This document shows positions 34,198-44,257 of a stretch of DNA of 64,000 bases, piece by piece. Position 1 is the first letter of the stretch; every line of letters starts with the position of its first letter. The stretch spans positions 2,604,001 through 2,668,000 of the forward strand of contig NZ_CP030033.1 of the NCBI RefSeq assembly GCF_003611035.1, in the 5' to 3' direction. The notes beneath the pieces are model-generated. The model was given only the letters and a program-made list of their open reading frames with translations. It ran no database searches and was not told the origin of the DNA. Source of the stretch: Cryobacterium soli (GTDB lineage: Bacteria > Actinomycetota > Actinomycetes > Actinomycetales > Microbacteriaceae). The position numbers and the translations under genes were made by a program.

Positions 34198-35220
34198 TTA
34201 GCGCGGAGGCGGGCCGACTGACTGCCGCAAAACGAGCGGGCACGGCATCTGAATCTGTTGCGGCTCCGAGTCGCCGTCGCCGGCGAGTTCGGCGGCGAGC
34301 CGTTCCACGGCCCAGCGGCCCATCTCGTAGTGCGGCAGGGCGATGGACGTCAGCCCGGGCAGCAGCGCGTCGGCCACGAGCTCGAAGTTGTCGATGCTCA
34401 CGATGCTCAGGTCGTCGGGGATGCTCAGGCCCGCCAGCTGTGCCGCCTGGTACGCGCCCATCGCCATCCGGTCGTTGAAGCAGAACAGGGCCGTGGGTCG
34501 GTCGGTCAGCGCGAGAAGCTGGCCGGCGGCCTCCCGGCCGACCCCGGTGGTGGACTCGGTGGCGGTGACCAGGGTCGCGTCGAAGGCGATGCCGTTCTCG
34601 GCGAGCACGGCCTTGTATCCGGCGAGACGGCCGTGGGTGGCGGGGATGTCGTCGATGTTGCCCAGGTAGCCGATGCGGCGGTGTCCGGCGGCGATGAGGT
34701 GCTCCATCGCGGTGCGGGCGGCGCCTTCTTCGTCGGGAACCACCGAAGAGAGGTCGGCCCGGTCACTGTAGGCGTCGAGCAGCACGATGGGTACGCCGGT
34801 GAGGGCCTCGGGCAGCTTGACCGCCTGGTGGTACATGCGGGCGTAGATGATGCCGTCGACGCTGTGCTGCAGCAGGGCGTCGATGCCGCGGCTCTCGAGG
34901 CGGTCGTCGCGGCTGGTGTTGACGATCATCAGCACCTGGTCGTTGGCGGCAGCGGCTTCCTGCGCCCCGAGCAGAACGCGGCCGGCGTAGGGAGTGGTGG
35001 AGATCTCGTCGCTGATGAAGCCGATGATCTGCGAGCGCTTGCTGCGGAGTCCGCTGGCGAGGCGGTTGGGCGTGTAGTTGAGGCCCTCGGCCACTGACTT
35101 CACACGTTCCCGAGTGGCGTCGCTGAGCTGTCCGCCGCCGCTGAGCGAGTGCGACACGGTCGTCACAGAGACGCCGGCCGCGGCCGCGACCTCTCGAATA
35201 CCCACACGCTTGCTCATCAT
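34198..35220 (-). CDS. LacI-family transcriptional regulator 2
   Basis: A 340-residue LacI/GalR regulator. The helix-turn-helix is VGIREVAAAAGVSVTTVSHS, the hinge YTPNRLASGLRSKRS, and the ligand domain includes GFISDEISTTPYAGRV and SIVSIDNFELVADALLPG. It is the first gene of the leftward sucrose/fructan operon. Two CG-centred palindromes lie upstream of the start. The start is either 35220 or 35217; both follow a weak GGG site. Confidence 0.92.
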   Translation of the reverse strand: MMSKRVGIREVAAAAGVSVTTVSHSLSGGGQLSDATRERVKSVAEGLNYTPNRLASGLRSKRSQIIGFISDEISTTPYAGRVLLGAQEAAAANDQVLMIVNTSRDDRLESRGIDALLQHSVDGIIYARMYHQAVKLPEALTGVPIVLLDAYSDRADLSSVVPDEEGAARTAMEHLIAAGHRRIGYLGNIDDIPATHGRLAGYKAVLAENGIAFDATLVTATESTTGVGREAAGQLLALTDRPTALFCFNDRMAMGAYQAAQLAGLSIPDDLSIVSIDNFELVADALLPGLTSIALPHYEMGRWAVERLAAELAGDGDSEPQQIQMPCPLVLRQSVGPPPR

Positions 35221-35232
35221 TGAACCCATTCC

Positions 35233-35278
35233 CAAAAACGTTTTTGTTGATGGGTGAGAGCTTACATAAACGTTTTTG
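35233..35278. promoter_or_regulatory. Pair of LacI-type operators
   Basis: CAAAAACGTTTTTG (35233-35246) is a perfect palindrome, and CATAAACGTTTTTG (35265-35278) is a near copy. Their centres are 32 bp apart, about three helical turns, which suits cooperative binding of a LacI dimer pair. They lie directly before the LacI gene. Confidence 0.85.
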
Positions 35279-35408
35279 TGGATGTCAAGAGCTCTATGTT
35301 CCTTGCCTCGAGCCCTTGTCGCACCGTCTGAGCTCTGGTCGATGTATTTTCACTTACGGCGTGCTCCTTGGGGCAAGCCGTGGTCACTCGTGGCGGGTCC
35401 AGGGCGGG

Positions 35409-36452
35409 CTACGGAGCGTCCACTGCGGGTGCGAGCGCTGCCTTGCTGTGGCACAGCGCCCCTGGCGCGTGACGGGCCATGAAAGCGTCATGTCTGCTGG
35501 TGTCACGATGAACACGTATGCCGTCGCTACTCGTAAGGCGGATGGTGCCTGCACAGCTAAACCCAGATTCCTGACCCTGAGCGTAGGGAGAGGCAGACGA
35601 GGGGTCCGTTGGGCCGGGCAATGCACCGCAGCGAGTCGACAATTGCGCACACGCGATACGAGCCAGTGGAATCGTCTGTCGCACCGTCCCTACGACCACG
35701 GGTTGAGGGTTATGAGAGCCCCCACGTCCGTTCGAAATGAACACCTCTTTCGGGCCGACCGCCAAGCACAGTGCCTCCAGAGCAAGAATGGTCTTGCTTG
35801 AAGTCCCCATGAAGCCGCCATGGTGCGGAAGAACGAGGTAGTCAGCACTCAGATCAATCTTGGAATCAAGGAGGTGGTCGCAACCCACGGAATCAATGTC
35901 ACCCGTAAATAGGAGCAAGGGGTACTCAGAGACGCGGATCATAGCCACCACGCTCATGGTGTTGGACTTGATCAGTTTGTGCTCAAGATCGGTGCCGCCG
36001 GCTCCGATCTTGGTCAGGCGGAGTCGAGGGGCAAGAAGCTCAATCTTTACCGAAGGTGCGACTGTGTCGATTCTCACACCCTCCACCGCCTCGATTACTT
36101 CCAAAAGCTTCCCACTACGCTTCAAATCGTCCACGGAGTAAACAAATGCGGTCCAAAGCTTGCTTGACTTCGCTGCATCGCTGTTGAACACAATCCGCTT
36201 CACGGGGAATCCCGCATCAAGCATGGCGATTAAACCTCGAATGTGGTCACTGTCTGCGTGAGACAGGATGACAGTGTCAATCTCCTGTATACCCTCGACG
36301 CGCAGGTACTCGAGGATCGGTCCTCCCGGCCCGCTATCGATCATCGTGCCTCTGTTGCCATCTGTGAGAACTATCGCACTGCCGTGACCGACATCGACAC
36401 AGTCAATGCGGAATCCGAAAGGTAGAGCGGAGGGCGTTGTCAGCGCGTTCAC
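35409..36452 (-). CDS. ComEC-type metallo-beta-lactamase-fold hydrolase
   Basis: A 347-residue soluble MBL protein. It begins FRIDCVDVGHGSAIVLTDG, has MIDSGPGG, and the metal motif SHADSDHIRGL (the HxDxDH form of ComEC-like domains rather than HxHxDH). LLLFTGDIDS and VLPHHGGFMGTS supply the later Asp and His ligands. No membrane helices are present. ComEC-like MBL domains act as nucleases or phosphodiesterases. The GTG start at 36452 overlaps the receiver stop by 4 bases, so it is translationally coupled; ATG 36464 is an alternative. It is the last gene of a four-gene operon and could be its effector. Confidence 0.85.
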   Translation of the reverse strand: MNALTTPSALPFGFRIDCVDVGHGSAIVLTDGNRGTMIDSGPGGPILEYLRVEGIQEIDTVILSHADSDHIRGLIAMLDAGFPVKRIVFNSDAAKSSKLWTAFVYSVDDLKRSGKLLEVIEAVEGVRIDTVAPSVKIELLAPRLRLTKIGAGGTDLEHKLIKSNTMSVVAMIRVSEYPLLLFTGDIDSVGCDHLLDSKIDLSADYLVLPHHGGFMGTSSKTILALEALCLAVGPKEVFISNGRGGSHNPQPVVVGTVRQTIPLARIACAQLSTRCGALPGPTDPSSASPYAQGQESGFSCAGTIRLTSSDGIRVHRDTSRHDAFMARHAPGALCHSKAALAPAVDAP

Positions 36453-37111
36453 CGCACTTCCCATTCGCACAGGTAGATCTCGTCAATGTCTTCAGAGCCC
36501 AGGTTTGCTTGGGCGTAGCAACGGAAGCCAGGTTTGACCGATCGTCCCAGAGCTGCGGGTAGGTCTTTTATCTTCACTGCAAAGACTTCGTCGCGTTGCC
36601 ACGCTGGCAGCTCCACGAAGAATGATCCTGCGTATTCAGGATCCTCTTCGACAAAATGCACCTGCGCTCTCCAAGGTCTGCGAACCGGACGGAAATTGCC
36701 CTCAAGCTCGAAAAGGCATGCTTCGAGTCCCTCCATGAGGCTGTCCGGATTCAAGTCATCCGGAGCCATCAGGACTGGTATCCACCGAAGGTGGGGGCGG
36801 ATCCTGGCGATTTCCGCACGATCGTACCGAGTGCAAAGCAGGGCGGGGAAATTGTCGCGGTGCCATGCCGATACAAGCTCCGCGCCGTTGAAAGCAGCGT
36901 AGCCTCCAGGGCTCAGCTTGTAGTCGCTGATGGCTGCGTCGGCATGTCGAGGCAGCTTGAGGAAATCCGGCAGCGTACCTAGTTGGGGGCCAATCTCTTC
37001 CACCGACTCTAGGTCGGCGAATTCGACCTGGTAACGAAGGCTCTGACGAACGAAAGGGTCATCATCAACCAACATGACTCGCCTGATCCCCTGAATCCCG
37101 CTACTCATCAT
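36449..37111 (-). CDS. Response-regulator-like receiver protein with unknown C-terminal domain
   Basis: A 220-residue protein. The N-terminal receiver has VMLVDDDPFV (acidic pocket), ISDYKLSPGG with the phospho-acceptor Asp near residue 63, and LLCTRYD (Thr). The usual Lys of the KP switch is replaced (IPVLMAPDDL), so signalling may differ. Residues 125-220 have no recognisable helix-turn-helix or enzyme motif. It overlaps the upstream kinase gene by 11 bases and the downstream MBL gene by 4, which argues for a fixed stoichiometric complex or pathway. Confidence 0.75.
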   Translation of the reverse strand: MMSSGIQGIRRVMLVDDDPFVRQSLRYQVEFADLESVEEIGPQLGTLPDFLKLPRHADAAISDYKLSPGGYAAFNGAELVSAWHRDNFPALLCTRYDRAEIARIRPHLRWIPVLMAPDDLNPDSLMEGLEACLFELEGNFRPVRRPWRAQVHFVEEDPEYAGSFFVELPAWQRDEVFAVKIKDLPAALGRSVKPGFRCYAQANLGSEDIDEIYLCEWEVR

Positions 37112-39167
37112 CGACCCCAAGCAGGGTTAGGCGGACAACAAACGTTGCGCCCCCCAACTGACCGTGCGCGGAAGCCTCAACGGTTCCGCCGAGATCCGAT
37201 ACAGCATCCCGAACGATTGTGAGCCCCAATCCCGTACCTCCATCCCGCCTGGTTTCACCTGGCAGCCAGATGTCTTTTACCGCAATGCCTTCGATGCCGG
37301 GCCCGTTGTCCGCAACTGTAAGCTCCCACATGCCGTCAAGGACACGAGATGAGATGCCAATCATCCTTTTTGGTATGTTGATGCGCTCGAAAGCAGAAAG
37401 GCTGTTGTTGATCAGGTTCGTGATCACAGACTCCAGGGCGGCATCAGTCCCGCGCACAAAAGGGCGGCCAGGAGCTAACTCCAAACTCACGGTGACCGAG
37501 CGGCCCGTCAGAAATGGCTGGTAGGTGGCGACGACGCTTTCGATGACACTGTGAAGCCCAACCTTTGCGACCCGACGTTTGTCGGGATTGATCAGACTCA
37601 GAGTCGCGGCGGAAAGCACATTTAGGGACGCTGTTGCGTTAAGGATGCTATCGATTGGTGCAGCGTACTTCGCCTCGTAAGCTGGTTTGATGTCCCTTTG
37701 GAGCCCGAACCGAATTGCGTTCGTTGAGTACGCGATGACTTTGAGCGGATTTCCATTGCTCTCATGAGCAAATGTCGCGCTTGTAATTCCTGCGGTGCTT
37801 AGGGTGCGGTAGAGCTGAACTTCTCGACGCAGACTGTCGGTCTCCTTCTCCCTAGCTTTGTCGTACTTCGCAAAAGCTGTTTCAACTTCGCGTTTCTTTT
37901 GCTTGTCGGAGATCTCGGCGATTTGTTGTCGAACGTCCTGTCGAGTGCCCTGAGCGGCAGTCGCATTCTCTTTGACCGCGGTCCGGCGTCGTTGCTCGGC
38001 CGTATTCAGCCGCTGTCGCGCCATCCAATCCATCGCGTCCGTAGCGGCTTCCCTGATCGCGTCGAACTCAGCGCTCTCGATGAAGCCCGATCTGTTCGTA
38101 TTTTGGACCAGAACTCCTTCCACGTCGTCCACTTTTACTCGGCCAATAGAGTTATTGGTGGAAGGGCGGAACTCCGGGTTTCTCGCTCTGGCCAGGTTCA
38201 TTTCGAGCCAATCGTTGCCCGCATTCCCGTACGGAGAAACTCGTAGCCCATTGGAGTAAACATGGACGCCACCGAAGCTTCGGAGCCACTCTTTGACCTC
38301 GCCCAGGCTGGCCGATCGAGTGCTGAAGGTCGCGCCGTCGAGGCTAAAGGCCCACAAGTCAAAGTGCAGGTTTGGGGCGTCGTACAACGACCCGTTGGCC
38401 TTTACGCGCAGCTCCGCGTGCTCAGCCTTGTAAAGCGCGTTTCCCCGCCAGTCGGAAACCTGAGCAGTCAGCTTTCCCTCTGAAAGCACAGCGGAGAGGT
38501 GATAGTCGGCCTCACTGAAATAGTGATCTTCGACGACCCGAGTGAGGTCTGCGAATTCTGGCGCGTATAGATGTGGGCGGAAGGAATTTTGGTCTTCACC
38601 GAAAGGATCGGATAACAAGACGAGCGAGCGCACGAGTCGCTTGACCTCAACTCGCCCGATCGGCTTTCGCAGGTCGCCAATTTCAATCAACGTACCCCTG
38701 AAATCTGTGTGATCGGTGTTCTCAGCAACCACGACGGTTGTCTCGTCGACTGTTGAGGCGCGATCGAAAGCGTCCCAGTCGAAATGAACCTCGAACCGAC
38801 TGTTGCTGGAGGACGGTCTTGATGTCATGTGCGCTTGCCGACCAAGCCTGAGCGCTGCAAGTCGACCAAGGCCTTTGTTACCTGCCGGCCTGCGTCCGAG
38901 TGCTGTCACCTGACCAGTCGTCTTTTTCGAGCTGCCCAGAACTAGCCAGCCGTCAACAATGTCTGCCGAATTCATGCCTTCCCCATCATCAGAGACCGTG
39001 ATGCGCGGCAAGTTATTCTCGTCGCGTATTAGCGACACAGTGCACTCGAGGGCGTCTGCGTCGTAGGCATTTTTGACGAGCTCGAGAATCCCTTGATCGA
39101 TATTGGGATTAAGTTCTTCACCAAGGCGACTCAGGATGCTGGTGGCGAAGCGGATGTGACCGTCCAC
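37101..39167 (-). CDS. Histidine kinase with two GHKL ATPase domains
   Basis: A 688-residue soluble protein. Residues 1-200 form an Hsp90/MutL/MORC-type ATPase: ELVKNAYDADA (Glu29, Asn33), VSDDGEGM (59-66) and AGNKGLGRLA (95-104). A middle region (210-370) and a coiled coil (385-450) follow. Residues 455-688 are a histidine-kinase core: TFAHESNGNPLKV with His468, ITNLINNSLSAFE (N box), VADNGPGI (G1) and GGTGLGLTIV (G2). It has no membrane segment. The natural partner is the receiver gene it overlaps. The N-terminal ATPase could be a gate or sensor, as in MORC-like proteins. The start is GTG, 1 base after the methyltransferase stop. Confidence 0.88.
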   Translation of the reverse strand: MDGHIRFATSILSRLGEELNPNIDQGILELVKNAYDADALECTVSLIRDENNLPRITVSDDGEGMNSADIVDGWLVLGSSKKTTGQVTALGRRPAGNKGLGRLAALRLGRQAHMTSRPSSSNSRFEVHFDWDAFDRASTVDETTVVVAENTDHTDFRGTLIEIGDLRKPIGRVEVKRLVRSLVLLSDPFGEDQNSFRPHLYAPEFADLTRVVEDHYFSEADYHLSAVLSEGKLTAQVSDWRGNALYKAEHAELRVKANGSLYDAPNLHFDLWAFSLDGATFSTRSASLGEVKEWLRSFGGVHVYSNGLRVSPYGNAGNDWLEMNLARARNPEFRPSTNNSIGRVKVDDVEGVLVQNTNRSGFIESAEFDAIREAATDAMDWMARQRLNTAEQRRRTAVKENATAAQGTRQDVRQQIAEISDKQKKREVETAFAKYDKAREKETDSLRREVQLYRTLSTAGITSATFAHESNGNPLKVIAYSTNAIRFGLQRDIKPAYEAKYAAPIDSILNATASLNVLSAATLSLINPDKRRVAKVGLHSVIESVVATYQPFLTGRSVTVSLELAPGRPFVRGTDAALESVITNLINNSLSAFERINIPKRMIGISSRVLDGMWELTVADNGPGIEGIAVKDIWLPGETRRDGGTGLGLTIVRDAVSDLGGTVEASAHGQLGGATFVVRLTLLGVDDE

Positions 39168-39168
39168 T

Positions 39169-40452
39169 TCAAGCCGCCGCTTCTAGCCACGGGATTTCAC
39201 GAACGGAACCAACCGTAAGGTGGCGACATCGAATTCTCTCGTCGAGGTAGTCGCTGGTCCGTTGATCCGATAGAACATCACGCAGACGCAAGCAGGTGGC
39301 CACCTCTTGGTCGAGTGGCATGAGAAGAATGAGATGGTTTTCTACTGCGACTGGTGCTGCGTCGAGCCACAGAGTTGCTCGAGCTCTAGGGAGCTGACCT
39401 GGACGCGACGTCCTACTGACTAGGACCATCGGTCCGTTGTATAGTTTTCCGTTGTACTGACGCCTCTGGTGGGGGTGACTTCTCGAAGCGAGATTTTTGG
39501 TGGTCAGATAGAGGGACGATGGGCCGCTTTCAGGGTCGCGGTGCGGGACAACTGGGCCTACTCTAACCTCGAACAAATCGGATACCTTCACGGGCGATGA
39601 GGCAGATGCCATCCACTTTGCAGCAGTAACGCCATCAAAGTTGGGCGCACCAATGATCATCTCGAGAACGAAGACGTGCACGTCAGTCTGCTGATCAAAC
39701 TGCCCGAGCGCCTGAACTCGAATCAACTGGCCAAGGCCGGAGAGTCGGCTTCGCCATTTCGCGTATCGGGCTCCGCTGCGAAGGACATCGGGGAGAATCG
39801 CAAGCAGTCTCGACCCAGGGGCCATGGACTCGGCAGCTTGCATCGCGAAAAGCGCAGCGCTGTTCACTTTTCCCGCTGCCCAATCACAAGTGTCGGGCGC
39901 CGTCGTTGCGAAAAACGGGGGGTTCATGACAACGTGTGAGGCGTCGCGCACAACATCCGGGCTGTGAAGAAAGTCTCGAAGTATGAAATGACTGAAGTCT
40001 TCATTTCTGTGCACGCTCCTCAGGCGGGCGCGCGCAGTTCTGAGAAATGAGTCTTCAAGATCCGCGCCACGAATCTGGTTTGTAATCGATGCCCGGGGGT
40101 GCATCCTTGACAGGTGCGCCGCAGGCAGAAACAGGAGGTCCCCAGCGCCGCATGCGGGATCCACTACGATCGACGTTTCCGTCAGACTGCTTAGAGTCGG
40201 CGACCAAAGCCTTTCAGCGAGTTCTGGGCCAGTGAAGAACACGCCGGCAGCGCGTAAGTCTTTCACCGGGATAAGCGCTCTAAGCGCCTCATAGGGGGCG
40301 GGTCCGTCGAAGTGGCCACTCGCGTTTTCTGGCGCGTCGTCGTACCCGAGACTCGCGTCTACGAAGGCCTCGAACTCAGAAGCATAGGGCGCAAACAACT
40401 TCACTTGAAGAACCACCGAACGTGATAGCAACAGCCCATCCGACTTTGACAT
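39169..40452 (-). CDS. Class I DNA N6-adenine methyltransferase (N-6 DNA methylase)
   Basis: A ~427-residue SAM-dependent methyltransferase. FFTGPELAERLW precedes motif I VVDPACGAGDLLF (about residues 98-110), GADLEDS is motif II-like, and VVMNPPFFAT (motif IV, NPPF) is near residue 177, in the order of gamma-class N6-adenine enzymes. The C-terminal ~200 residues may be a target-recognition domain. No restriction nuclease is fused. The start is uncertain: ATG 40452 is preferred; a TTG at 40587 is in frame. It heads the operon with kinase, receiver and MBL protein, all lower in GC than the flanking genes. Confidence 0.85.
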   Translation of the reverse strand: MSKSDGLLLSRSVVLQVKLFAPYASEFEAFVDASLGYDDAPENASGHFDGPAPYEALRALIPVKDLRAAGVFFTGPELAERLWSPTLSSLTETSIVVDPACGAGDLLFLPAAHLSRMHPRASITNQIRGADLEDSFLRTARARLRSVHRNEDFSHFILRDFLHSPDVVRDASHVVMNPPFFATTAPDTCDWAAGKVNSAALFAMQAAESMAPGSRLLAILPDVLRSGARYAKWRSRLSGLGQLIRVQALGQFDQQTDVHVFVLEMIIGAPNFDGVTAAKWMASASSPVKVSDLFEVRVGPVVPHRDPESGPSSLYLTTKNLASRSHPHQRRQYNGKLYNGPMVLVSRTSRPGQLPRARATLWLDAAPVAVENHLILLMPLDQEVATCLRLRDVLSDQRTSDYLDERIRCRHLTVGSVREIPWLEAAA

Positions 40453-41071
40453 CGATGGAGCTGTAATTGGGCTAATACATGCTGTAGAAAGCGCTCTACC
40501 GGCGCAGTTGGTGAACACTCGCAAGCGCAACGGTGTAAGTCCTCTGACGTTAGAACAGAATCGAAGCCTAGTGTGTGCGACGTTCAATCAGCGGTCTCCG
40601 GGGACTTGTCTCAGCCGCAACTGTCATCTCTTTCTCAGCTAGTGCTTGATCGCAACTTTACGCCTTGAAGGACTGATCGATCGCTTGTGCTGATCGCTGC
40701 CCTCTCTCACTCTTCGCCCCCGACCTGCGGGTCGCCCCGGGCAGCATGGTCGGCCTGCCCGATCGGGGCTTGCGGCGAAGAGCGAGCTCACCATCGTGCT
40801 GCACGCGGTGTCCGCGCGACTCGGCTTATATCACCACGGATCCATCCGGCGCCTTCAGCACGCAGGACACAGTCCAGAGAGGCACCAAAGCGGTCCAGCA
40901 TCGCATCGTGGACACAGGCGCGATCGCTCGGAACGTGAGCACGCCGCCGACGCCAGAGCGGCCCTGTCCAAAACCGAATTCGGCTTGCTTGCCCCAATGG
41001 CCGCACCTGCCGCTGGGCGAGCTCGTTGAGGCCGCACGATCCGGCCCTTGAGGACGAATCACGGGATCCGT
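40453..41071. other. 620-bp stretch without a supported gene
   Basis: It contains the probable promoter of the methyltransferase operon at its left end. From 40690 to 41050 there is a more GC-rich block with several overlapping short frames on both strands, none with a recognised domain or ribosome site. It could be a decayed gene. Confidence 0.4.
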
Positions 41072-41518
41072 TCAGCTCGGCCGTCGTTGATGATCCCGCT
41101 GTACCTCAACCAAGTGGGCGGGTGAGACCCAGAAGACCCAAATCCCAATCGATCGAAGGGCAGGGGCAATGCGCTCGACTTCGAGGCGGTGGAACTCGGA
41201 AGCGGGCAAGGCCACCGCCGCAAAAGCCAGCCCTGTCGATGCGACTTGCATGGCTCGGACGACCGCGACGGACACGTGAGTCTTGACCTGATTGCGGGTA
41301 AATGGCTTGCCGAATCGAGCCGAATTGCTTTTCGAGCTGCCGTCACCCTTTGCTTCGATAATCAGGTGCTGCGCGCCACGACTGGCAACGATGTCGTCCC
41401 CATGCTGATGGCTTAACGCGAACGAATCGATTGTCCACCCGTCAGCCGCAAGGTACTCGATCACCGCTCGCACAACGTCATCCTCGTAGAGGAAAGGACT
41501 GGGCCCGGTGTGCGTCAC
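41072..41518 (-). CDS. PD-(D/E)XK nuclease-fold protein, stand-alone
   Basis: A 148-residue protein. The N-terminus VVRAVIEYLAADGWTI is the first helix of restriction-endonuclease-like folds. DDIVASRG (Asp42) and LIIEAKG (Glu55, Lys57) give the D-x(n)-ExK metal site. FTRNQVKTHVSVAVV matches the Q/H-containing helix that follows in these families. It is probably an active metal-dependent DNA nuclease or a Mrr/very-short-patch-like component. It starts with GTG at 41518. It lies 620 bp upstream of the methyltransferase operon on the same strand, so it could be the missing nuclease of a restriction-like system. Confidence 0.7.
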   Translation of the reverse strand: MTHTGPSPFLYEDDVVRAVIEYLAADGWTIDSFALSHQHGDDIVASRGAQHLIIEAKGDGSSKSNSARFGKPFTRNQVKTHVSVAVVRAMQVASTGLAFAAVALPASEFHRLEVERIAPALRSIGIWVFWVSPAHLVEVQRDHQRRPS

Positions 41519-41610
41519 GTCATCAACCTACATTGGTGTGGCCGGGCCCTCGCACCCACAGTCAGAGCACCCATTATCATGAGCGCAGGACCGAGATTTT
41601 GGGGGGCGTA

Positions 41611-42123
41611 ATGGCCGACGAGGACGAAGAGCCGCAGCTCGACGAGGAGCCCGCAGCGGCTATTGAGTCGGAAGAGCAGGAGCGGCGTGCGGAGCCTTCT
41701 CTAGAAGAAGCAGAGAAGCTGATCAAGAATGCTGAACCAGTCTTGCGAAAGCTTCGACTGGACCCGGATATGGCCGAGCGCGCAGGCGAAGGATTTCGCG
41801 CGCTCAGGGAGGGCCTAAGTGACTTTCTTGTAGCGAGCGACCGAGGCGCAGGACGACACAAAGACACGGCAGACAAGATCATCGATCTGGTCAAGCGTGA
41901 GCTCGACCGGGAGGGGTTGACCCCGCAGGAGCGGCTGGAGTTCATGCAGGCCGGTGAGCGGATGGTCGGTCAGGTCGGTGATGTCGAGAAGGACGTGCGG
42001 GAGTCAAACGCGCGCACCCTCACGAAGGTTGTCGCCATCGCAGCCGGAGCCGTCGTGGGCGCTGCACTGCTCGGTTATCTGGCGAAGGAGGGGAAATTGC
42101 CGACTGCGCCCCCTATCGCCTGA
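41611..42123 (+). CDS. Acidic protein with C-terminal membrane anchor, unknown function
   Basis: A 170-residue protein I do not recognise. Residues 1-35 are strongly acidic, the middle (about 35-130) is charged and helix-rich, and near the C-terminus VVAIAAGAVVGAALLGYLA forms one hydrophobic segment with a short tail. This is a tail-anchored-like layout. ATG 41611 follows GGGGGG. It is divergent from the PD-(D/E)XK gene with a 92-bp gap, so the two may be co-regulated. Confidence 0.6.
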   Translation: MADEDEEPQLDEEPAAAIESEEQERRAEPSLEEAEKLIKNAEPVLRKLRLDPDMAERAGEGFRALREGLSDFLVASDRGAGRHKDTADKIIDLVKRELDREGLTPQERLEFMQAGERMVGQVGDVEKDVRESNARTLTKVVAIAAGAVVGAALLGYLAKEGKLPTAPPIA

Positions 42124-42439
42124 CACATAATCAGAGCTGCTCCCGTCCAACTAGACACTGGACCCAATGCGCCCGGTAGGGGATCCCTTGTCGGACGCTT
42201 ACTGCCACCGGGCCCTGCCACGCCACAGGCGACGACTGTTGAGGCCCTTCGCGCCGAGTTCGCCCGCCAGGCCGAGCAGAAGCGTGAACGGCTGGGCCGC
42301 GGCGGCCTGAACGTCAAGGCCGCGAGGCTACTGATATGCGTAACCGACCCAACGAGCTTGAGAGATGAAGGCCGAGAACGCTAGCTCTATCAACGCTCCG
42401 GCGCCCTTCTTCGTAGATCGAGAGCCAGGATCTGCCACT
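42124..42439. other. 315-bp stretch, possible gene remnant
   Basis: A GC-rich stretch at 42235-42345 translates to a charged helical segment (LRAEFARQAEQKRERLG) without start or stop context. It looks like a fragment of a lost gene. Nothing else is supported. Confidence 0.3.
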
Positions 42440-42994
42440 ATGCGCAGTATGGAGTTAGAAACAGTAAAGAAACTTACGGCAGCCGACCAAAGAATCTTCT
42501 TGCTAGGCAGAGTAGTGGCGCAGACGTCCAGTCTTGATATCGCGCTTAGGTTTGTGAATTCGGCGCTGCATGGACATCACAACGTAGACGCCTATCTGGA
42601 TGCGCCGGACAACTTCAGTAAAAATGTGCGCTCTTGCTCTCAGCTCGCTAGAGCACATGTCGACTTAGAGGAGAGCACTCGGTTAGCGGTCCTGGACGCG
42701 ATAGCTGCAGCGGAAACCGTGTACAAACAGCGAAATCGGTACATGCATGACTTCCTACGGGAAGACCTTTTAAGCCAAGGATGGGAACTCGCGCGGCTGA
42801 CGCGCCAGCCCGACGAAATGGCAGAATCCATGCCAGTAAGTTTCGACGACATGGTGACTCTCGTTCTTGAACTGACTACCGTGACATGGCGGCTGCGGGG
42901 CTGCGGGCTATACGTTCTCGGCGGCCAATGGGAAGCAATGGCTCTCGGCACCGTGCAAGGTCTCTGGGATGGCAAGGCTACGACATCGCGCTAG
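42440..42994 (+). CDS. HEPN-like protein (RNxxxH motif)
   Basis: A ~184-residue all-helical protein. It contains KQRNRYMHDFL, i.e. R-N-x-x-x-H (Arg98, His103), the R[N/D/H]-x3-H signature of HEPN ribonuclease domains, at the start of a late helix. The codon use is markedly AT-richer than the flanking sugar genes, indicating transfer. HEPN proteins are common toxins or antiviral RNases, but many RNxxxH proteins are uncharacterised. The start could be 42440, 42449 or 42365. No antitoxin-like partner is evident next to it. Confidence 0.55.
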   Translation: MRSMELETVKKLTAADQRIFLLGRVVAQTSSLDIALRFVNSALHGHHNVDAYLDAPDNFSKNVRSCSQLARAHVDLEESTRLAVLDAIAAAETVYKQRNRYMHDFLREDLLSQGWELARLTRQPDEMAESMPVSFDDMVTLVLELTTVTWRLRGCGLYVLGGQWEAMALGTVQGLWDGKATTSR

Positions 42995-43390
42995 AGATTC
43001 CATTGCTGGTTTCCCGGTCCCTACGAGTCCCTAGGCCGAACACTTCCACATTGTCGGGCCACGGCCGAGACGGTGCCCTTAGTTTCGAAGAGGTGTCTTC
43101 GGGCGCGGTCACAGAACCGGAACGGGCCATTCGCGCCGTCGAGTAGAACGGCCGAGTGACGGTCCCAATCGTTGGTCCACCAGGCCGACATCGCGCTGAG
43201 ATCATCGTCCAGCTCGGCGGCCACGTGAGCTGCGACGAAGCTGGTCGTCGACCAGGGCAGCCCGGAAATCTGCCTAGCCGGCGTGCTGCGCAGGAAGTTT
43301 CCGGTCTTCACCTATTCCCGCTGCCCTGCCCCGCATGTGATGGCGCCATCACCAACGGATCCACATGCGTGCTGCAGGTACGGGATGGTG
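42995..43390. other. ~400-bp stretch, no confident gene
   Basis: A leftward frame at 43021-43311 is open, but it lacks a ribosome site and a recognisable domain. This is the right edge of the low-GC island before the AraC gene. Confidence 0.35.
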
Positions 43391-44257
43391 CTACCCCTTC
43401 CGCTGCCCCCGGTACCCAAACGGCGTCACCCCGTGCACCTTCTTGAACTGGCGGGCGAAGTAGAAGCTGTCGGGGTAGCCGGTGGCGGCGGCGACCGCGG
43501 CGATGGATTGGTCGGTGGTGTCCAGGAGTTCGCGGGCCCGGGCCATCCGTAGCTGGGCTTGGTATTGCAGGGCGGGGTAGCCGATGCGGCTCTTGAAGAG
43601 GGCGGCGAAGTGGGAGCCGCTCAGACGCGACATGGCGGCGAGCTCGGCGACGCTCACGTGGTCGTCGATGTGGGTGCGCAGGTACTCGGCGGCGCGGTCG
43701 ATGGCGGCGTAGCGGCCGTCGCCCGTGGAGCGATCGGAGGCGAGCAGGGCCATCAGGTGCCAGGCGGCTCCGGCGGCCGCGAGCAGGCTCGCGGTGGTGG
43801 TGTCGCGCTCCATCGACTGCAGCACCTCGGCGATCAGCGCCACCACCCGGTACACGTCTGACGGGGTGCGGATCGGCGCGTCCGGGGTCATGCCGGCGGC
43901 GGTGAGGAACTCCGGCAGGTCGCGGCCGGTCACGTGCAGCCACCACAGCGTCCACGGGGTGTCTTCGTTCGAGCCGTACGAGTGAGGATGCCCCGGCGGC
44001 AGGATGATCACCTGCCCGGCGGTGACCGGGAAGCGGCCGGCCGGTGTTTCGCACCAGCCGCTGCCCTTGGCGCACACGATGATCACGGCCTGCGAGATCG
44101 GGGTGGCACGCGCCCGGCCGTGCGAGTGCGCCTCGGGGAAGTAGCCGCAGTCGGTCACTACCAGGTGCGAGGTGCCGGGCTGCTGCAGGGCCTCCCGCAC
44201 CCGGGGGCGGGGGAGCACGAGCATGCGCTGGCCTGGGAAACCGTCGGCGATCGTCAT
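43391..44257 (-). CDS. AraC-family transcriptional regulator
   Basis: A 288-residue regulator. An N-terminal cupin ligand domain (VIIVCAKGSGWCETPAG, ILPPGHPHSYGSN) precedes a C-terminal double helix-turn-helix (VSVAELAAMSRLSGSHFAALF and IAAVAAATGYPDSFYFARQF, ending GVTPFGYR). This is the classic sugar-sensing AraC/RhaS layout. It is divergent from the DUF5107-AraFGH-like operon and probably activates it. The 90-bp gap has a small GGAGA-AA-TCTCC dyad at 44301-44312. Confidence 0.92.
   Translation of the reverse strand: MTIADGFPGQRMLVLPRPRVREALQQPGTSHLVVTDCGYFPEAHSHGRARATPISQAVIIVCAKGSGWCETPAGRFPVTAGQVIILPPGHPHSYGSNEDTPWTLWWLHVTGRDLPEFLTAAGMTPDAPIRTPSDVYRVVALIAEVLQSMERDTTTASLLAAAGAAWHLMALLASDRSTGDGRYAAIDRAAEYLRTHIDDHVSVAELAAMSRLSGSHFAALFKSRIGYPALQYQAQLRMARARELLDTTDQSIAAVAAATGYPDSFYFARQFKKVHGVTPFGYRGQRKG

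Follow-up and report, generated by a model that had tools for sequence, protein, structure and literature searches.

The closest published kind of system to the four-gene operon of Cryobacterium soli discussed here is the pairing of HEF_HK kinases, which are predicted to be soluble and carry an HATPase_c_3 domain, with Response_reg_2 receiver-like proteins; the two are predicted to form two-component-like pairs tied to restriction-modification (R-M) genes (PMC8011034, Bellieny-Rabelo et al. 2021). C5 methylases are conspicuous among their neighbours, and Vsr and HNH nucleases also occur there. This kind of system is itself a genome-based prediction; the parts of that paper drawn on here report neither a function test nor a metallo-beta-lactamase-fold (MBL) protein, the words "metallo" and "lactamase" have no occurrence in its main text, and bacterial MORC relatives are described there as biochemically poorly understood. 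The GHKL ATPases known as paraMORC also occur in R-M neighbourhoods (PMC2292703, Iyer et al. 2008), in a text that contains neither "receiver" nor "lactamase". Detocs is a three-gene two-component defence family whose best-described effector is an ATP-cleaving PNP (PMC11249213), and ComEC contains an MBL domain that acts as a Mn-dependent DNA nuclease and becomes virtually inactive when most of its metal-coordinating residues are mutated (PMC8579336, PMC12455585). The operon compared with these systems lies in a 64,000-nucleotide stretch of the 4.39 Mb C. soli genome (contig NZ_CP030033.1, positions 2,604,001 to 2,668,000), hereafter the window. It is probably an anti-phage defence system, a reading that rests on sequence and is well supported by context.

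The operon consists of four minus-strand genes in the order N6-adenine DNA methyltransferase (MTase, 40452-39169), sensor kinase (39167-37101), receiver (37111-36449), and MBL (36452-35409). An earlier reading of this DNA made without database searches (the sequence-only reading) had described four packed leftward genes, and the open reading frame (ORF) coordinates confirm its spacing: a 1-base gap between MTase and kinase, an 11-base overlap between kinase and receiver, and a 4-base overlap between receiver and MBL. Its description of the kinase as a soluble protein with two ATPase domains also holds, as the protein matches PF13589 and PF02518 and has no membrane span. In contrast, the receiver, which it had called degenerate, is not inactive by sequence, as described below. 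None of the four proteins reached a curated NCBIfam cut-off among the matches listed (for the kinase, the best 25 of 66 families), and a PADLOC scan of the four gave weak partial matches only.

At E<=0.1, the only Pfam matches of the kinase are PF13589 (75.4 bits), PF02518, and PF14501, giving an N-terminal HATPase_c_3 and a C-terminal HATPase_c domain. From these matches, alignment motifs, and a predicted model, we describe the protein as a putative sensor kinase with an N-terminal MORC/MutL-type GHKL clamp, a coiled coil, a helix bearing His468, and HATPase_c. Among 22 aligned family members and distant relatives (alignment A8), His468, N584, N588, G622, G644, G646, and G648 are each conserved in 22/22 and D620 in 21/22, with the glycines counted at both ATP sites invariant, and these intact motifs suggest that the kinase can autophosphorylate. 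The predicted model has a predicted local distance difference test score (pLDDT) of 82 and a predicted template-modelling score (pTM) of 0.70, with pLDDT below 50 in the stretches flanking His468 on both sides. Its best structure matches are histidine-kinase cores (e.g., ZraS, CpxA, and HK853). It also matches DNA-bound MORC2, SMCHD1, and Hsp90 ATPase modules over at least 430 columns, at ranks 27 and below and with target TM-scores of 0.31-0.48 (for MORC2 9cdj, 462 columns, E 5.6e-11, target TM-score 0.47, and root-mean-square deviation 6.8); for a model of this pTM, such matches are a fold resemblance, not a subfamily assignment. In the model, a MORC-like clamp looks to sit in place of the kinase's sensor domain, and this N-terminal MORC/MutL-type ATPase would be a likelier DNA sensor than the MTase.

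The receiver has no Pfam match at E<=0.1, and hence no DNA-binding domain was recognised in it. In a 68-sequence alignment, Asp17, Asp63, a Thr/Ser position, and an acidic residue at position 16 are each conserved in 68/68, and the beta5 Lys alone is not conserved. A profile search of a protein database returned 193 homologues, and alignment A5 took in 62 of the 121 P-numbered receiver proteins. The AF2 model (pLDDT 96) places a CheY-like receiver at residues 6-138, followed by a C-terminal beta domain, and the structure matches cover mainly residues 6-138 and barely the beta domain. As that domain was modelled only together with the receiver part, we make no claim of a new fold.

The MBL matches PF00753, has ComEC structures as its best PDB matches, and has its metal-ligand pattern in common with ComEC. 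Each of the ligands (HxDxDH, a later Asp, and a later His) is conserved in 128/128 aligned sequences, as are two Cys. From the MBL alignment A3, one homologue interrupted by an insertion sequence (L023) was left out, and another in it (L002) is cut by the end of its locus. A profile search returned 235 homologues among 8000 scored candidates. One 574-residue database protein, P0179 (source ena, one 42 kb contig), consists of a receiver (residues 1-228, 220 bits) fused to an MBL (residues 240-563, 383 bits), which argues for direct action of the receiver on the MBL rather than transcription control. Taken with the ligands and the ComEC matches, the fusion points to a ComEC-type hydrolase that is a probable nuclease effector.

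The MTase carries DPACGAG and NPPF motifs and a C-terminal putative target-recognition region. Its match to PF02384 is weak (23.6 bits), and the nearest solved structures are the BseCI MTase (43.7 bits) followed by HsdM proteins.

Had gene order not been conserved, the sequence-only reading would have given up its proposal of a defence-type operon; the order is kept. Kinase searches followed by a protein-by-protein check found it in seven other genomes or plasmids of several phyla, all with MTase orthologues, so that eight loci are known including the window. The seven comprise a genome from another family of the same order (G069, 54% kinase identity), plasmids of Hymenobacter volaticus and Burkholderia aenigmatica, Massilia mucilaginosa, and three metagenome-assembled genomes assigned to Acidobacteria, Candidatus Multivorans, and Thermoanaerobaculia. 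(The search that gave Massilia and the metagenome-assembled genomes found nine loci; the short matches L031-L033 were left out.) The Massilia set is directly followed by a phage-type integrase gene (L027:8615-9208, minus strand; PF00589, 106 bits). Pairwise distances of the four proteins correlate across the eight loci (r 0.86-0.96 for every pair, Mantel p<=0.0018), helped by two close loci, L026 and L028. Three further loci have kinase, receiver, and MBL without an adjacent MTase of the window's family: one on a Pseudanabaena plasmid (L023:8830-10783), in which the MBL gene is interrupted by an annotated IS982 transposase, and two in genome G599, of which the second is split over contig ends (L090 and L089), its pieces presumably belonging together. 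The kinase, receiver, and MBL are thus the core, present at 11/11 loci of the window's kinase family (one pieced together across those contig ends), and the MTase is a frequent but not universal partner (8/11). Upstream of the kinase of the split G599 triad, a CHAT-domain protein (L090:2550-4706, minus strand; PF12770, 143 bits) stands where the MTase is missing and may be an alternative partner.

Kinase matches at E<=0.001 occur in 98/100 relatives; among the matches listed, and the window's own aside, the only close full-length one is that of G069, the others being partial. Of the 241 plasmid records with kinase similarity (40 listed), 12 were opened (H1-H8, H10, H35, H38, and H40), and in 10 of the 12 a DNA methyltransferase is annotated within the stretch. 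Campylobacter accounts for 41 of the 241, and on a Campylobacter armoricus conjugative plasmid (L037:4986-9436) a distantly related dual-GHKL kinase occurs with a receiver protein and a C5 methyltransferase. Members of the receiver family (E<=1e-5) were found in 3 of 72,556 plasmid records, each beside a kinase and an MBL.

The window's MTase family (E<=1e-10) was found on four plasmid records, each with an adjoining dual-GHKL kinase, receiver, and nuclease candidate, the latter being an MBL in two and an HNH protein in two. One HNH version, on a Klebsiella variicola plasmid (L098:6384-11253), has the same MTase family, a kinase gene in pieces, a receiver, and an HNH gene, and adjoins the annotated anti-phage protein Ppl; another, on a Rhizobium phaseoli plasmid, has its kinase in two pieces and the MTase downstream. 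Kinase-receiver-HNH sets with other MTases occur on a Deinococcus gobiensis plasmid and in an Anaerolineae metagenome-assembled genome. Kinase-receiver-HNH versions are also found on the IMG/VR contigs L050, L043, and L045, which suggests that viruses or prophages may be vehicles for the sister systems; L050 encodes an MTase 35% identical to the window's over 395 aligned positions and, after it, a distantly related kinase, a receiver, and an HNH protein. (Of 23 viral kinase loci found, 17 were listed by ORF, and the HNH of three was checked by Pfam.) Between receivers of the MBL type and those of the HNH type, the relationship is confined to the receiver part (hhalign probability 95.5, 93 columns), which suggests that a different C-terminal domain goes with each effector.

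The operon is enclosed by a variable low-GC cassette (35290-43386), delimited by blastn against the corresponding loci L073 and L074 of genomes G002 and G004 and by the GC profile: GC content is 55-61% between 35 and 43 kb vs. 64-75% in the flanks, and both genomes align with the window as far as 35289 and again from 43387 or 43392. The flanks hold a LacI-type regulator on the left (34198-35235, minus strand), kept in L073 and L074, and an AraC-type regulator on the right (43391-44257, minus strand), whose orthologues in G002 and G004 are 98% identical; both come from the ORF list, with type assigned by eye. The AraC gene was searched in 40 relatives and two were compared at the site. These two closest relatives lack the window's cassette there: G002 instead carries an OLD-like protein, a retron III-A PRTase, and a reverse transcriptase (L073:9466-14465), and G004 carries a TIR protein and PDC-M03A/B (L074:10063-13533). 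One site in three related genomes therefore holds three different cassettes, two of which have PADLOC matches to defence models, known or candidate. The site, flanked by AraC- and LacI-type genes, is a small defence hotspot. A tRNA- or RNA-linked island was considered and rejected, as the window contains no tRNA and 34-45 kb has no Rfam match, and no direct repeats of at least 10 bases were found at the cassette ends in the two 250-base stretches compared. Three further cassette genes, at 41072-41518 (minus strand), 41431-42123 (plus strand), and 42365-42994 (plus strand), have no Pfam, PADLOC, or NCBIfam match; by eye, the first encodes a 148-residue protein with a PD-(D/E)xK-like pattern, and the product of the second has a hydrophobic stretch near its end.

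With moderate confidence, we read the operon as a defence module that moves horizontally, with a MORC-like clamp kinase that would signal through a receiver to a ComEC-type nuclease, i.e., phosphorelay-gated restriction with an exchangeable nuclease slot. The ATPase clamp, MORC-like and joined to a histidine kinase, would detect invading DNA; the kinase would autophosphorylate on His468 and pass the phosphate to Asp63 of the receiver. The receiver's C-terminal domain would then activate the MBL, a coupling supported by the fusion P0179, and the activated MBL would cut nucleic acid, most likely DNA. The MTase probably marks host DNA, such that the clamp stays untriggered or the nuclease spares it, and the nuclease slot may be filled by an MBL, as in the window, or by HNH, as in the sister systems. 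If so, two-component signalling and restriction would be joined with a defined input (the clamp) and output (the nuclease), the operon would be a tractable model for how a MORC-type ATPase reports DNA state, and a nuclease could be tolerated without a matching methyltransferase, being off until a phosphorylated receiver arrives. More speculatively, and with odds that we put somewhat short of even, the clamp may be a histidine-kinase input through which DNA state (foreign, unmethylated, or wrongly coiled) is read by a phosphorelay that ends in the direct allosteric activation of a swappable nuclease; such systems would form a phosphorelay-gated restriction class of their own (MBL, HNH, and perhaps others) and an ancestral parallel to eukaryotic MORC/SMCHD1 silencing.

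Several observations weigh against the module as we read it. The adjacent MTase is missing at three of the 11 loci, and no MTase orthologue was found in G599 or the Pseudanabaena plasmid (best other match 27.8 bits), so MTase sensing or marking cannot be the whole trigger. Target domains of R-M systems are usually variable; here the putative recognition region is no more variable than the catalytic part (mean pairwise identity 0.41 vs. 0.40 over 28 pairs, with regions drawn by hand), and its conservation across phyla hints at one common target. P0179, from a database, is a single example of the fusion, and misassembly could account for it. Other ComEC-like MBLs (27-28% identity) are found on Geobacillus and Exiguobacterium plasmids (23 plasmid records have MBL similarity, of which 15 were listed and three of this family opened). 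The system is also rare: with starting genomes excluded, the receiver occurs in 0/395 genomes of its own phylum and 2/395 of its own order (G069 and G599; the two samples overlap), and a full-length receiver in 0/299 of the Massilia order, where a search at E<=1e-6 gave 5/300, four being partial 31-36-bit matches in larger reading frames. A pattern-limited scan of viral_contigs returned no receiver family member and no virus carrying the MBL version, phage records giving two distant partial kinase matches. No known defence gene stood out beside the other four-gene loci in annotations and ORF lists, most neighbours being unscanned. The defence-type operon of the sequence-only reading thus stands as a conserved set with a kinase-receiver pair intact by sequence and a probable nuclease, but not as a universal four-gene set. 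Likewise, its proposal that the methylase marks or senses modification survives only in part, the MORC-type ATPase being the likelier sensor.

We also weighed other explanations. The operon might act by abortive infection similar to Detocs, with infection triggering the relay, the MBL destroying RNA, a nucleotide, or a signal molecule, the cell being killed or arrested, and the MTase acting as a passenger or regulator. MBL folds also act on other substrates, an adjacent MTase is missing from three of the 11 triads, and the kinase-receiver-effector logic is as in Detocs (PMC11249213). Nevertheless, the closest solved relatives of the MBL are ComEC proteins, HNH proteins are found in sister systems that share the MTase family, and the sensor half of the kinase is MORC-like, and we consider abortive infection unlikely. 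Alternatively, the MBL could be an unusual restriction enzyme in an R-M system in which the kinase-receiver pair does no more than control how the restriction gene is expressed, in line with the signalling role over R-M systems speculated for HEF_HK/Response_reg_2. The composition of MTase plus nuclease fits, and the R-M association of such pairs is in print (PMC8011034). This is less probable still, as no DNA-binding domain was recognised in the receiver by Pfam, one receiver homologue is fused directly to an MBL, and the triads without an MTase would be unprotected restriction enzymes.

The plasmid location of three named records would suit a selfish addiction module of plasmids or islands, in which cassette loss activates the nuclease in daughter cells and defence is secondary. 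R-M systems can indeed act as selfish addiction modules, but the chromosomal site is shared with known and candidate defence cassettes, and we regard this as very improbable. Least credible of all is a physiological regulator of DNA damage or DNA uptake unrelated to parasites: ComEC is a DNA-uptake protein, and one G599 triad (L088) adjoins what by eye are housekeeping-type genes, but the sporadic distribution, low GC, and exchange at the site with defence cassettes speak against it.

The sequence-only reading did not recognise this gene set as a named system. We found no description of the MTase-kinase-receiver-MBL set in the titles and abstract starts searched, with subscription journals and preprints mostly outside their scope, which makes this weak evidence of novelty; the general idea of such pairs linked to R-M is already in print (PMC8011034). 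Membership in several known families was considered and rejected: the HEF_HK/Response_reg_2 signatures PF19191 and PF19192 were not found (Pfam, E<=0.1; presence of both models in the library copy unconfirmed); PADLOC-DB and Pfam scans gave no match to Detocs with a PNP effector (presence of Detocs models in the PADLOC copy unconfirmed); of the mad models of MADS, only mad2 matched, partially, at 37.3 bits; and 6A-MBL (NCBIfam NF058524) scored 22.7 bits against a 220-bit cut-off, its name not being found in the literature searched.

Similar to HEF_HK, the window's kinase is predicted to be soluble, has an N-terminal HATPase_c_3 and a C-terminal HATPase_c, and adjoins receiver-like and DNA methyltransferase genes; the methyltransferase, however, is N6-adenine rather than C5, the type stressed for those pairs, and a ComEC-like MBL fills the effector slot. 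With paraMORC it shares a MORC/MutL-type ATPase linked to methylases and nucleases, but the window's clamp is part of a histidine kinase and has a receiver as its partner. Detocs relays from kinase to receiver to a non-transcriptional effector, a logic that the window's set resembles; to our knowledge, Detocs has neither an MTase nor a MORC clamp, whereas the window's set has an MTase, a MORC-like clamp, and an MBL in place of PNP. By library names, RTasMBL, LmuA, Avs1a, and 6A-MBL of PADLOC/NCBIfam are MBL-fold defence components; the similarity of the window's MBL to the first three is weak (43.7, 37.8, and 13.7 bits). ComEC/Rec2 provides the closest solved structures, with the same H-x-D-x-D-H and later D and H; the window's MBL differs in being free-standing, in its Cys-containing C-terminal extension, and in being tied to a receiver. 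Set beside all of these, the strongest novel element would be a MORC-type clamp as the driver of a phosphorelay that ends at an exchangeable nuclease.

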